From positions 186,001 to 250,000 of the forward strand of contig NZ_JANDBC010000002.1 of the NCBI RefSeq assembly GCF_024320785.1: DNA of 64,000 nt, in the 5' to 3' direction. A program made the translations under genes and the position numbers. Position 1 is the first letter of the stretch. Every line of letters begins with the position of its first letter. Under the pieces are notes generated by a model. It worked only from the letters and a program-made list of their open reading frames with translations, was not told where the DNA came from and did no database searches. Shown piece after piece: positions 27,905 to 32,283 of this stretch. Source of the DNA: Gracilimonas sediminicola (GTDB lineage: Bacteria > Bacteroidota > Rhodothermia > Balneolales > Balneolaceae).

Positions 27905-27980
27905 TTTCATCATTTAAAATTCATAATTCTAAAGCCGAGTTCTTATTTTCAGCTTCCTAATTTTGAAACGAATATCATCA

Positions 27981-30161
27981 ATGAGCGATACTTCTATTTT
28001 TAGTTTTTTAGCGAAGCAACTGAATTTTTCACCTAAGCAAATCAGTACTGTAGCCAAGTTTTTGGATGAAGGAGCTACGGTTCCTTTTCTGGCTCGTTAC
28101 CGTAAAGAAGCCACCGATGGACTGGATGAGGAACAAATCCGCGCTATCCGAGATGGCTTAGAAACCCAGCGGACCTTGGAAGCCCGTAAAGAAACGGTTC
28201 TTAAATCTATCAAAGAGCAGGATAAACTAACGCCTGAGCTGGAAGAGCAAATTAAGGCCTGTACGGATTTGACTACTCTGGAAGACATCTACCTTCCCTA
28301 TAAACAAAAGCGTAAAACCCGGGGCGATAAAGCCAAGGAAAAAGGATTAGAGCCATTGGCTCAGCTTATCTGGGATCAGAAAATTGAGAAAGGTGATCCG
28401 GTTGAATACGCCAGGGAATACATCGATAAAGAAAAAGAAGTAGAGACAGTTGAAGATGCCTTCGGCGGAGCTACCGACATCGTAGCGGAATGGATCAACG
28501 AAAGCCTGGAAGTGCGGGAAATGCTGCGAAAGGTATTCGCCGAGCATGCTAATATCGTGACTAAGAAAAACCCGGCCGTCAAAGACCGAACGAATTACGA
28601 AGATTATTACGAGTTCTCTTACCGTGCCAGCAAAATGAAGCCTTACCAGATTCTGGCTATCAACCGCGGCGAAAAGGAAAATGTCCTGTTCGTAAACGTG
28701 GAACTTTGGGAAGAACGAACGCTCGAGAATATTGACGACCTGGTGATCAACAACGACCTGAGTATTTTCACGGAATACCTGCAGGATGCTGTAGAAGATG
28801 CTTACAAACGCCTGTTGTTCCCATCACTGGAACGGGAACTCAGAAGTGACCTTACCGACAAAGCCGATGAACATGCTATCGAAACCTTTGCGACCAACCT
28901 CGGCAACCTGCTTATGCAGCCCCCACTCGACAAAAAAGTAGTAATGGGCATTGATCCCGCTTTCCGAAGCGGTTGTAAAGTCGCTGTAGTGGATGAGCAT
29001 GGAAAATACATGGAAGGAACCACCACCTACCCAACTCCTCCACAGAAAAAAGTAGCAGAAGCAGAAGCTGTTTTCGAAAAGCTGATTGATAAGTACGGGG
29101 TGAGCCTGATCGCCATCGGTAATGGAACTGCCAGTCGTGAGACCGAGCAGATTGTGGCCGACTTCCTCCAAAAACGAAAAGAGAAACACCCTGATGAAGA
29201 ACTTCACTACCTGATTGTGAATGAAGCGGGAGCATCGGTCTATTCGGCCTCTAAAGTTGCCCGGGAGGAATTCCCCGAGCTGGATGCTGCACAACGTGGA
29301 AACATCTCCATTGCCCGACGGGTTCAGGATCCATTGGCGGAGTTGGTAAAAATTGATCCAAAATCGATTGGGGTCGGTTTATACCAGCATGATGTGAATC
29401 AGAATCAGCTGGCAGGTAAACTGGACGATGTGGTTGAAAGCTGTGTGAATGAAGTTGGGGTGAACCTGAACACGGCATCTGCTCCTTTGCTGTCTCACAT
29501 CTCCGGATTAAGCAAACGGGTGGCTACCAACATCGTGAAACATCGGGAGGAAACGGGGATTTTTATGGACCGCGAGCAAATTCGTAGTATTGACGGTGTG
29601 GGCGATTTCCGTTTCCAGCAGGCGGCCGGATTCATGCGTATTCCTGAATCCAAGAACCCATTGGACAACACCGCCATTCACCCCGAAAGTTATGAGGCTG
29701 CTGAGAAGCTTTGTAATCTGTTTGGCATCAATCTCGAAAACCTTTCTTCAGAGAAGGATAAGATTGCATCCAAATTCAAAAATGTGAACCTCGGAGAAAC
29801 AGCTGAACAAATCGGCGTTGGGGTTCCTACCCTGGAGCTGATTATAGAAAACTTACAGAAACCGGGACGTGACCCTCGTGAAAACCTTCAAAAGCCGTTA
29901 CTTCGCACCGATGTGATGAAGATGGAAGACCTTAAAGCAGGTCAGAAACTGGAAGGTACCGTTCGGAACGTAGTTGATTTCGGAGCGTTTGTAGATATCG
30001 GAGTTAAACAAGACGGACTGCTTCACATCTCCAACATGGCCGAAAACAAGAAGATTGAAGACCCTCATGATGTGGTAAGTGTTGGAGATATTCTGAGTCT
30101 TGAAATCATTACTTTGGACCTGGAACGAGGTCGGATTGGGCTAAAACTCGTTAATGGTTAA
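27981..30161 (+). CDS. tex: Tex family RNA-binding transcription accessory protein
   Basis: A protein of about 726 residues starting MSDTSIFSFLAKQLNFSPKQI; an in-frame TTG at 27963 is less likely. Order: N-terminal helical Tex domain (VPFLARYRKEATDGLDEEQIRAI), a YqgF/RNase H-like domain with GIDPAFRSGCKVAVVDEHGK, helix-hairpin-helix motifs (VGVNLNTASAPLLSHISGL and IRSIDGVGDFRF), and a C-terminal S1 domain (VRNVVDFGAFVDIGVKQDG). Tex binds single-stranded nucleic acid and affects transcription and stress tolerance. It stands alone, divergent from the sigma operon. Confidence 0.96.
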   Translation: MSDTSIFSFLAKQLNFSPKQISTVAKFLDEGATVPFLARYRKEATDGLDEEQIRAIRDGLETQRTLEARKETVLKSIKEQDKLTPELEEQIKACTDLTTLEDIYLPYKQKRKTRGDKAKEKGLEPLAQLIWDQKIEKGDPVEYAREYIDKEKEVETVEDAFGGATDIVAEWINESLEVREMLRKVFAEHANIVTKKNPAVKDRTNYEDYYEFSYRASKMKPYQILAINRGEKENVLFVNVELWEERTLENIDDLVINNDLSIFTEYLQDAVEDAYKRLLFPSLERELRSDLTDKADEHAIETFATNLGNLLMQPPLDKKVVMGIDPAFRSGCKVAVVDEHGKYMEGTTTYPTPPQKKVAEAEAVFEKLIDKYGVSLIAIGNGTASRETEQIVADFLQKRKEKHPDEELHYLIVNEAGASVYSASKVAREEFPELDAAQRGNISIARRVQDPLAELVKIDPKSIGVGLYQHDVNQNQLAGKLDDVVESCVNEVGVNLNTASAPLLSHISGLSKRVATNIVKHREETGIFMDREQIRSIDGVGDFRFQQAAGFMRIPESKNPLDNTAIHPESYEAAEKLCNLFGINLENLSSEKDKIASKFKNVNLGETAEQIGVGVPTLELIIENLQKPGRDPRENLQKPLLRTDVMKMEDLKAGQKLEGTVRNVVDFGAFVDIGVKQDGLLHISNMAENKKIEDPHDVVSVGDILSLEIITLDLERGRIGLKLVNG

Positions 30162-30171
30162 ATCGTTAGTA

Positions 30172-30280
30172 GAACCGGAGGTTCAGGCAGGTGTTCCAAA
30201 CCAGAGGTTGGGAACGAGAATATTGTATCACTCTCGTTCCGAACGTTCCGTTCGGAATGCATGCCGGTACCTCTGGTTCC
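30172..30280. repeat. Left REP-like palindromic element flanking the RAYT gene
   Basis: A 109-bp block packed with inverted repeats: GAACC(GGA)GGTTC at 30172-30184; GGAACGAGA / TCTCGTTCC; TTCCGAAC / GTTCGGAA; and a final CTCTGGTTCC. It aligns in direct orientation with the block at 30918-31057, sharing GGTTGGGAACGAGAAT and the outer GAACC and TGGTTCC ends. Confidence 0.85.
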
Positions 30281-30296
30281 AAATAGCGAATTAAAG

Positions 30297-30833
30297 CTAC
30301 CCCGCATAAATGGTTACAGGAATTAACCCCGTTTGCCCCAAATAATTTCTGGCTGATGAATACCGCCAATATTCAGGTCTGTCAATGAAACCACGCTTTA
30401 CCGGATTGAAATGAATGTAATCCAATTTCTGAGCTACCATTTCATTATTCAATAGCTGCTTCGGATGAAACCCTTCTTCCCATACTTGGTAATCAGATTT
30501 AAGCTTATGCTTTAGTTTTCTGAATTCTATTTGAGCCAATAACTTAGAATTCCCATCTGCTTTCAAACAATCAATCATTCGTCTTGCCATAAATGACTTT
30601 GCGAGTCTTAATTTTTTAGCCAAATCTTCTCCCTCAACAATAGCATGAAAATGATTTTCCATGATTACGTATCCGTAAATAATTACCTTTCTTTCACTCT
30701 GAAGGAAAAGAAAGCCATCTAAAACAATCTGAGATAATTTAGGTTTTGAGAGCAATGGCAATCCATCTTTTATCATGCTGGTAATAAAGTATGGATAATG
30801 TTCTTCGTATATTTTGTATCGGCTTCGCCCCAT
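30297..30833 (-). CDS. REP-associated tyrosine transposase (Y1/HUH family)
   Basis: A 178-residue single-domain HUH nuclease. It begins GRSRYKIYEEHYPYFITSMIKDGLPLLS, typical of RAYTs. The metal-binding HUH motif is His-Phe-His in VIMENHFHAIVEG. The candidate nucleophilic tyrosine is in the helix QKLDYIHFNPVKRGF, a strong family signature. The C-terminal WRYSSARNYLG is also conserved. These proteins nick and rejoin single-stranded palindromes such as those on either side of this gene. The full-length frame shows no stop or shift. Confidence 0.93.
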   Translation of the reverse strand: MGRSRYKIYEEHYPYFITSMIKDGLPLLSKPKLSQIVLDGFLFLQSERKVIIYGYVIMENHFHAIVEGEDLAKKLRLAKSFMARRMIDCLKADGNSKLLAQIEFRKLKHKLKSDYQVWEEGFHPKQLLNNEMVAQKLDYIHFNPVKRGFIDRPEYWRYSSARNYLGQTGLIPVTIYAG

Positions 30834-30917
30834 GATTTTCTCTTTACTTTTTTCCAGTAAGAGTAATTTCGGGACGATTCCTTACAGAATTTTTAATGAG
30901 CCCTTATTAATCATGTT

Positions 30918-31057
30918 GAACCAGAGGTTCTGGCATGCATTCCCAACCGCCGGTTGGGAACGAGAATTCTCATTTGAGAATTCTTTTTTAGTAGTTGTTA
31001 CTCATGACACTCGTTACGAACGGCCCGTTCGTAACACATGGCGGAACCACTGGTTCC
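30918..31057. repeat. Right REP-like palindromic element flanking the RAYT gene
   Basis: A 140-bp block containing GAACC(AGA)GGTTC, CCCAACCG(C)CGGTTGGG, GAATTCTCA(TT)TGAGAATTC, GTTACGAACGG(C)CCGTTCGTAAC and GGAACCA(C)TGGTTCC. All are perfect or near-perfect palindromes, and several pairs look co-varied relative to the left copy at 30172-30280. The block occupies most of the 271-bp gap before the aminotransferase gene. Confidence 0.85.
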
Positions 31058-31104
31058 ATTCTGTTGACATTAATAACAAATAAAAATAAATCATCACCTC
31101 ACGC

Positions 31105-32283
31105 ATGGACAAAGCACAGCAGCTCGAAAAACAATACCACTTCCAGGTGTACAACCGCCTGCCGGTTACCCTCTCTCATGGAAAAGGAGCATTACTTTGG
31201 GATACCGAGGGAAACGAATACCTGGATGCTTTTGGCGGATTGGCTGTGAATAACCTCGGGCATGCTCACCCCAAAATAGTTGCTGCCATTAAAGAACAGG
31301 CTGACAAGCTGCTGCACGCCTCCAATTTCTTTTACAATGAGCCTCAGAGTCTGTTGGCTGAAAAACTGGCAACATTGTCCGGTTTAGACCGGGTTTTCTT
31401 TTGTAACAGTGGTGTAGAAGCCATGGAAGCCTGTGTAAAAATGGCTCGAAAGTGGGGTAAGAAAAACGGAAAGTCCGGAAATGTAATCACACTCAGTGAA
31501 GGATTTCATGGACGATCAGTAACAACCATTGCAATGGGCATGCCGAGCTATCGGGAGGGATTTGACCCCATGCCCACCGGATTTGATCAGGTTCCATTTA
31601 ATGATTTTGAAGCCCTGAAAGCAAAAGTAGATGAAGATACCATTGCTATAGGATTTGAAACCATACAAGGCTCCGGCGGGGTAAATGTAATTGACGGTGA
31701 ATTCCTAAAAAAAACCCGGCAGCTTTGCGATGAACTTAACATCCTTATGATTATAGATGAGGTACAATGTGGGATCGGTCGCTCCGGGAAGTTTTACGCC
31801 TACCAGCATTTTGATGTAATGCCTGATATTGTTGCTACTGCAAAAGCATTGGCAGGTGGAATTCCCATCGGAGCCGTTTTGGCAAAAGAAGAAGTGGCTT
31901 CAGCACTGGGATTCAGTGATCATGGCACCACATTTGGTGGAAATCCATTTGCCTGTCATGTCGCCAATGCAGCACTGGATGCCATTGAAGAAGAAGGACT
32001 CACCGAACAAGCAGCAGAAAAAGGAGCATTTATGATGAAGCTGCTCAGAGAAAGGTTATCCGGTTATCCCTCTGTTAAAGATATACGCGGACTCGGGCTT
32101 ATGTTAGGGGTGGAACTCGATCGCCCCGCCCGGCCTGTAATAGATAAAATGTTTGAGCATAATATTCTGGGCAATGCCGCTCATGGAACCGTTGTAAGGT
32201 TCCTTCCTCCTTTGGTCATCACCAAAGAACAAATTGAGCGTATTGTGGATGAACTGGTTTGGGCATTGAATCAAACTGAATAA
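31105..32283 (+). CDS. Class III PLP aminotransferase, acetylornithine/succinyl-DAP aminotransferase-like
   Basis: A 392-residue PLP enzyme of the ArgD/LysJ/GabT group. Visible landmarks are the substrate loop GLAVNNLGHAHPKI, the phosphate-binding FFCNSGVEAMEACVKMA, EGFHGRSVTTIAM, the cofactor Asp in MIIDEVQCGIGRSG, and the PLP lysine in TAKALAGGIPIGA. Length and loops suit acetylornithine aminotransferase, which often doubles as N-succinyl-DAP aminotransferase. With dapD, dapA, dapB and lysC only 5-9 kb away and no arg cluster here, a lysine role is plausible but unproven. Confidence 0.88.
   Translation: MDKAQQLEKQYHFQVYNRLPVTLSHGKGALLWDTEGNEYLDAFGGLAVNNLGHAHPKIVAAIKEQADKLLHASNFFYNEPQSLLAEKLATLSGLDRVFFCNSGVEAMEACVKMARKWGKKNGKSGNVITLSEGFHGRSVTTIAMGMPSYREGFDPMPTGFDQVPFNDFEALKAKVDEDTIAIGFETIQGSGGVNVIDGEFLKKTRQLCDELNILMIIDEVQCGIGRSGKFYAYQHFDVMPDIVATAKALAGGIPIGAVLAKEEVASALGFSDHGTTFGGNPFACHVANAALDAIEEEGLTEQAAEKGAFMMKLLRERLSGYPSVKDIRGLGLMLGVELDRPARPVIDKMFEHNILGNAAHGTVVRFLPPLVITKEQIERIVDELVWALNQTE

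Follow-up and report, generated by a model that had tools for sequence, protein, structure and literature searches.

A probable RAYT transposon with two-hairpin inverted ends in Gracilimonas sediminicola

Within a 64,000-nucleotide stretch of the Gracilimonas sediminicola genome, here called the window, a RAYT gene lies between inverted ends that each carry two hairpins and a four-letter foot. We read the arrangement, in the order CTCG, hairpin 2, hairpin 1, RAYT, hairpin 1, hairpin 2, CGAG, as a RAYT-type single-strand transposon, with a probability of roughly three in four. As read from the sequence, the features behind this are that the ends have a two-hairpin form and flank the gene in inverted order, and that similarity between copies in relatives breaks off at the foot, together with what appear to be dispersed gene-less end pairs and presence or absence of the element at matching sites. 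The anatomy is thereby explicit: the ends are defined and come in a left and a right type, there are derivatives without the gene, sites are polymorphic, and a variable recognition sequence is partly common to the two hairpins. This makes two ideas directly testable, in a group that spans several phyla, namely that REPs arose from a RAYT transposon by internal deletion and how RAYTs recognise REPs.

The RAYT gene and its flanking repeats

The gene occupies 30297-30833 on the minus strand. Its frame, described as intact in the original prediction, is indeed so and encodes 178 amino acids with the motifs NHFH (H61, H63) and YIHFNP (Y139). The assignment as a RAYT, a TnpA-REP-like HUH/Y1 transposase, also held: the curated NCBIfam RAYT model NF047646 gives 94.4 bits against a cut-off of 80, and a profile of 29 homologues finds E. 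coli TnpA-REP (PDB 4er8) at E 1.3e-10, with E 0.2 or worse for the remaining four chains listed. The top fold match of the AlphaFold model (pLDDT 91) is again 4er8 (E 8e-9), followed by the ISDra2 and IS608 transposases, and H61, H63, Y139, N143 and P144 are invariant across the 29 aligned homologues. Pfam returned no match to the window protein at 0.001; at 0.1 Y1_Tnp matches 28 of the 29 homologues, the sole exception being the window protein, and PHROGs gave an unnamed family only. The neighbours on either side, both on the plus strand and used as synteny anchors, are a gene at 27963-30161 that we take to be tex and one at 31105-32283 that is presumably aminotransferase-like.

The gene is bracketed by a left block of 109 nt (30172-30280) and a right block of 140 nt (30918-31057), coordinates and lengths that were correct as first reported. 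Aligned with each other, the blocks form direct repeats over 55 nt (80%) and 53 nt (81%); each block is also self-complementary, as an inverted repeat (48 nt at 75% and 47 nt at 74%). Folded as single-stranded DNA they reach z-scores of -6.7 and -9.1 relative to shuffles, none of 200 shuffles being equally good. An Rfam search of 29500-31800 returned nothing up to E 1.

Each block is made of one unit of about 48 nt, present twice in inverted orientation and consisting of hairpin 1, a spacer, hairpin 2 and the foot CGAG (CTCG on the other strand). In alignment the four units follow one common plan, with hairpin 1 close to GAACCnnnGGTTC, a spacer close to GGCATG, hairpin 2 close to TTCCNAACSnnnSGTTNGGAA, and then CGAG. 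Their order across the window is plus, minus, RAYT, plus, minus, with the gene inside an inverted pair, an arrangement also seen in its relatives. The inner left unit (30233-30280, minus strand) forms the left end of the element, with its foot CTCG at 30233-30236, hairpin 2 at 30237-30257 and hairpin 1 at 30266-30280, and the inner right unit (30917-30964, plus strand) forms the right end, with hairpin 1 at 30918-30930, hairpin 2 at 30940-30960 and the foot CGAG at 30961-30964. The whole mobile element as defined here, RAYT included, therefore measures 732 nt from the CTCG foot to the CGAG foot (30233-30964, minus strand), with bounds that we infer from copy pairs in two relatives, G058 and G002. 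Outside it lie an outer left unit (30171-30218, plus strand; hairpin 1 30172-30184, hairpin 2 30194-30214, foot 30215-30218), probably a leftover right end, and an outer right unit (31010-31057, minus strand; foot 31010-31013, hairpin 2 31014-31034, hairpin 1 31043-31057), probably a leftover left end.

The compensatory change proposed between the blocks is real, the named example being one base pair that is C-G in one and A-T in the other of the inner left and outer right units. Two further base pairs are swapped in the inner right unit, and one of these is an A-G mismatch in the outer left unit. Five hairpins had been counted in the right block; the count is right, but the middle one is a separate A+T-rich palindrome with a T run, lying between the two right units (30963-30984) and outside the repeat unit, and is weakly terminator-like on the plus strand. 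The repeats are, as had been suggested, more complex than a simple REP, in that each unit has two hairpins and its foot is not GTAG.

Two-hairpin units at RAYT loci of relatives

We scanned 58 family RAYT loci, excluding the distant or partial matches L040-L048, for two-hairpin units with stems alone as the criterion. Exact CGAG is present in 58 of 88 gene-proximal units whose foot faces away from the gene, with 17 more one letter off on a lenient count, and in 4 of 66 hits of the opposite orientation. More than 200 nt from the gene it occurs in 12 of 223 hits and in 11 of the 45 well-formed ones, as would follow if there are dispersed units, too, in the neighbourhood of RAYT genes. When flanks were chosen by position alone, 70 of 113 reached a well-formed unit (score 13); in 75 of 113 no shuffle of 40 matched the score, which leaves about one third without a clear unit.

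For alignment, 8 of 77 CGAG units were dropped with scores under 12.5, and 2 of the 67 distinct units were omitted from alignment A2. Loops of 3 and 4 nt fell out of register when MAFFT aligned the remaining 65, and both the counts and the model were therefore based on 31 units with a length of exactly 48 nt. Among these, 94.9% of cells are paired, a figure that is overstated and partly built in because the units were picked by their stems. The stems do covary across relatives, 11 of 14 pairs having changed on both sides, with 75 both-side-changed cells against 19.7 after shuffling and at most 20 with slid partners. Compensated changes can also be seen by eye, free of any stem-based choice, among the four window units and the units at matching sites in G000, G001, G005 and G009; these same units carry some mismatches as well. 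The element ends in G000, G001 and G005 are asymmetric, with hairpin 2 reading AACG on the left and AACC on the right.

Copy pairs point to the feet as ends of the mobile unit

Twelve pairs of copies were compared, and five of them are bounded by the element without similar flanks. Two RAYT copies at unrelated places in G058 are 98.5% identical over 726 nt (98.75% over 720), the similarity starting at CTCG with a few letters to its left and ending at CGAG or 6 nt past it, depending on the BLAST setting. The two copies in G002 lie about 2 kb apart and are 90% identical, with similarity ending within 1 nt of the feet; one of them holds about 50 nt extra inside. Two Methylobacter records share a similarity bounded by CCAG feet within 2 nt, and in L034/L064 and L062/L064 the bounds fall within 5-8 nt of the feet. 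Four pairs (L034/L062, L061/L063, L007/L087 and L007/L029) have their flanks in common, as orthologues should, and in L060/L078 and L032/L071 the feet were not recognised. The pair L072/L073 is a misfit, in which similarity begins 69 nt outside one foot and ends 36 nt inside the other. Since the RAYT pairs of G058 and G002 are similar only from foot to foot, we take the feet to be the ends of the mobile unit, and it looks from these pairs as if the element moves its own gene besides REP-like repeats. The gene beside the G058 copy L081 was also located in seven congeners of G058, with no RAYT in the fetched stretch.

Presence and absence at the tex site

RAYT follows tex in three of ten congeneric genomes, those of the window, G005 and G001 (Gracilimonas amylolytica, of the same GTDB genus; a G001 contig end equals the record of that species over 1512 nt), and is absent within 1.5 kb downstream of tex in the other seven. 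The G005 orthologue, at the same site, is 76% identical, and that of G001 is interrupted, being split over two contig ends with 720 nt in common, probably by an inserted repeat. In G007, the closest sampled relative, 70 nt stand at the site, with gene and repeats absent and flanks 97.4% and 94.4% identical. G004 and G006 have 65 and 108 nt there and no blocks, and G009 has the right-hand unit pair alone, one unit damaged, next to tex without the RAYT gene. No RAYT was found in G002, G003 and G008 in the fetched stretch, from which the aminotransferase is absent. The G008 site retains an apparent piece of a unit.

It is possible to ask from these data whether the gene still moves. A domesticated, vertically inherited RAYT would serve the host and amplify REP units in trans while the gene itself was now immobile. 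The G005 orthologue at the same site and the interrupted one in G001 are consistent with such a history, as are the 23 of 36 family genomes with exactly one match among those matching at E<=1e-40, and co-evolution of RAYTs and REPs is described in passages of PMC2817692. The foot-bounded copy pairs of G058 (98.5%) and G002 (90%) and the seven congeners lacking RAYT downstream of tex argue against it, however, and we regard domestication as rather unlikely.

The outer units can be understood from the same comparison. The segment 30172-30231, comprising the outer left unit and its flank, matches the right end of the G005 element and its flank at 85.5% over 62 columns, which leads us to read the outer units as probable leftover ends of neighbouring copies and the blocks as right-end/left-end junctions. 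The blocks would then be direct repeats because the outer units are such leftovers. The original prediction of two direct repeats bracketing the gene stands as far as the alignment goes, and is better replaced by four units, the element's ends and the leftover neighbouring ends.

A dispersed pair elsewhere in the window's genome (C1:1942091-1942222, 132 nt) is found in G007 but not in G005, where the net shortfall of about 155 nt exceeds the pair's own length and the gap is not foot-exact. At the tex site, too, the intergenic stretches of G007 and G004 differ from the window beyond the element and the gap is not foot-exact. On these alignments the gene-less sites at both places would fit loss as well as gain.

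Could the palindromes simply be transcription terminators or mRNA stabilisers, independent of the transposase? The left block sits between convergent gene ends, the palindrome at 30962-30985 has a T tail, and the right-hand pair of G009 stands next to tex without a RAYT gene. Yet unit orientation and foot track the RAYT gene in relatives, presence and absence is seen at the DNA level, the blocks are missing at the tex site in G004, G006 and G007, and terminator-like sites number 2 where 0.9 (sd 1.2) are expected. As the main explanation this is very improbable, although the palindromes may have a secondary terminator or stabiliser role.

Dispersed units in the Gracilimonas genome

Further copies had been expected from a 16-mer, GGTTGGGAACGAGAAT, but exact matches lie at the window locus only. 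Allowing up to two mismatches gave five places, the two exact ones included, against three for the reversed control. As this was near the control level, the search was replaced by a structure model, and it is only with the structure model that copies beyond the window locus emerge. The covariance model was built from the 31 units, which are mostly non-AACC, and with 150 of 722 candidates scored it gave at least 34 matches in this genome at E<=1e-5 and at least 44 at E<=0.05. With one half-unit dropped there are at least 43 units at E<=0.05, of which 36 are more than 1 kb away from any of the three close RAYT genes. Of 40 loci inspected, the window's four units included, an ORF proxy places 38 between genes, in line with the intergenic position that was to be checked. 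Nine genomes, this one included, have from at least 14 to at least 107 unit matches each (150 candidates scored per genome). In G008 the sole RAYT match is distant (E 2.3e-6), yet at least 14 unit matches are present.

The 16-mer result is the sole point in favour of chance palindromes around a degenerate element, an explanation that is refuted by the fold z-scores, the foot orientation counts, the covariation and the genome-wide model matches.

Eight neighbouring pairs of units occur away from the window gene. Seven have their feet outward, with 18-80 nt between the units, which is the layout of the pair that brackets the gene, and one is direct. Two dispersed AACC pairs carry the hairpin-2 code AACG in the left unit and AACC in the right (by eye), as in the ends of the RAYT element. 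Given the feet-outward layout and this left/right difference, the dispersed pairs look like elements minus the gene. Against the transposon reading, dispersed single units are unexplained by the moving of whole end pairs, and by eye the AACC code of the window is carried by only 10 of the 30 best matches, of which four belong to the window locus itself; the other codes are GAGGC (12), GAAGC (6) and GGACC (2). A copy number of at least 43 is also low for REPs, which usually exceed 100 copies according to PMC2817692. The GAGGC and GAAGC units make up 18 of the 30 best matches, and a RAYT with a GAGGC or GAAGC end was not noticed in passing in this genome; they are possibly orphan REPs after RAYT loss.

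Range of feet and a code common to both hairpins

Gracilimonas is a member of the Balneolota. RAYT matches were found in 26 of 57 genomes at E<=0.001 and in 36 of 92 family genomes at E<=1e-40, the window's own included in each. Scanning named genomes yielded 557 RAYT loci, of which the best 80 were taken; by record titles these come from Cyanobacteria, Planctomycetes, Pseudomonadota, Chloroflexi, Verrucomicrobia, Balneolota and others. At least one two-hairpin CGAG unit is present at 37 of the 80 loci and one on both sides at 12, in a scan that preferred CGAG; 30 of the 160 flanks have no unit. Many other loci have CGAT (Pseudomonas, Methylobacter) or CCAG feet. In a wider set of 137 loci and 274 flanks, from which L141 was left out as a second copy of L071, 187 units were picked blind to the foot, after L138 and L148 had been dropped from the count as copies of L052 and L066. 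Their feet are CGAG in 97, CGAT in 32, CCAG in 19 and CAAG in 8, and none of the 187 has a GT[AG]G foot (complement).

The three loop-proximal bases of hairpin 1 agree with those of hairpin 2 at 80.4% in 184 units, against 58.4% when shuffled (0 of 2000 reach this level), and over 57 distinct code pairs the agreement is 59.6% against 44.4%. The four-letter codes are identical in 76 of the 184 units and the inner three letters in 110. Exceptions in this genome include L100, L106 and L116, where by eye hairpin 1 has GAAGC and hairpin 2 GAACG. A tree test of co-variation between the hairpins, which left out 20 of 96 RAYTs that had no unit with any of seven listed feet, found three independent pairs at one position, with 2.9 on average in the same direction (median p 0.25), and two pairs at another, with 1.1 in the same direction and 0.9 showing no difference; with too few independent switches the test is underpowered. 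We therefore treat a code common to both hairpins of a unit as a supported lead with many exceptions and not as a result.

Beyond the foot, conservation is at most 0.31 bits at positions +1 to +4 in 67 family units, for which the foot letters were themselves a selection criterion. Position +5 beyond CGAG reaches 0.74 bits, with A in 49 of the 67, perhaps a target or cleavage preference.

A possible mechanism can be drawn from the biochemistry of TnpA-REP in E. coli, Stenotrophomonas and Marinomonas (passages of PMC8266576). By analogy, the HUH/tyrosine enzyme would bind each end as folded single-stranded DNA, reading the loop-proximal stem of both hairpins together with the foot. The foot would serve as a guide, the role proposed for GTAG in the known systems, and tyrosine-mediated cutting would take place at the feet. 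The unit moved would be either the whole element or a gene-less end pair (REPIN/MITE). What is new in this proposal is that each end would have two hairpins and that both would be read. More tentatively still, there may be a broadly spread class of RAYT elements with CTCG, ATCG or CTGG feet, each end carrying the same loop-proximal code in both of its hairpins; a RAYT dimer, or a single RAYT with two surfaces, would read that code twice. Such elements would copy their own gene in foot-bounded form, amplify gene-less pairs and be living intermediates between IS200/IS605 and REPtrons.

Comparison with known systems

The closest known systems are REPtrons and REPINs, the 'atypical' subclass 2.6 and TIRtrons. 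The element appears, from its sequence, to be a variant within the RAYT/REP kind. A literature search by foot or stem letters, with figures and supplements outside its scope, had none on these repeats among the results listed.

RAYTs with inverted REPs are described in passages of PMC2817692. With the REPtrons and REPINs of E. coli, Pseudomonas and Stenotrophomonas the element shares an HUH/Y1 enzyme of the same fold, a gene between inverted repeats, dispersed intergenic singles and inverted pairs, and repeat letters that vary from RAYT to RAYT. Unlike them it has CTCG, ATCG or CTGG feet in place of GT[AG]G, two hairpins per unit where theirs have one, copies of its own gene, bounded by the feet, in related genomes, and tens of copies rather than hundreds.

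TnpA-REP subclass 2.6, which corresponds to RAYT group 5, is described in passages of PMC6006769 as mostly from Bacteroidetes, with atypical flanking structures that lack GT[AG]G. It resembles the present family in this, in a median length of 179 amino acids, in the motif YIH[QN]NP and in having copies elsewhere in the genome. The same passages list NH[LIV]H, WQ and YIH[QN]NP, whereas the window protein has NHFH, WE and YIHFNP; the consensus of homologue alignment A4 has WQ, as subclass 2.6 does. The structures of subclass 2.6 are called weaker, a comparison that stands at the level of text description only.

TIRtrons (TIRYTs), in passages of PMC3733652, likewise have a RAYT-like gene flanked by long inverted repeats that bear no relation to GTAG; some of these repeats are 'double palindromic', and some occur as repeat families in dimers. 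The motif GGGGWSAS, a feature of some TIRs only, is absent from 30150-31080 on both strands, and 20 of 26 TIRYTs were later placed in subclass 2.1, with an HTH tail (passages of PMC6006769). TnpA-Y1 class 3 is similar in its non-GTAG foot (CnGA) and atypical structures and is described as lying between IS and REPtron, but it has a Y....Q-type motif where YIHxNP is found here.

An ordinary IS200/IS605 insertion sequence such as IS608 or ISDra2 would account for the HUH/Y1 fold, for hairpins near defined, asymmetric ends (AACG left, AACC right in hairpin 2) and for copies of the whole element, a trait seen in G058 and G002 and not in the window's genome. The protein motif is nevertheless Y-I-H-x-N-P and not the class 1 Y...Q (PMC6006769), the curated RAYT model is passed above its cut-off, each end has two hairpins, and this genome, with a single copy of the gene, holds seven pairs that lack it and carry several codes. 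An ordinary insertion sequence is therefore improbable, and the RAYT-type transposon remains our preferred reading.

Further RAYT-like genes in the genome

The window RAYT is single-copy in its genome, its nearest paralogues being 56% and 48% identical, which counts against the transposon reading. The family has 12 matches there in all, some of them pieces, and several of the further RAYT-like genes listed adjoin different palindromes. Two distant ones have unlike palindromic neighbours, AACCTTTCCAAAGTT/AACTTTGGAAAGGTT at L016 (G000:C1:1931388) and CATCACCCCGTTTC/GAGCCGGGTGATGG at L017 (G000:C3:297714).
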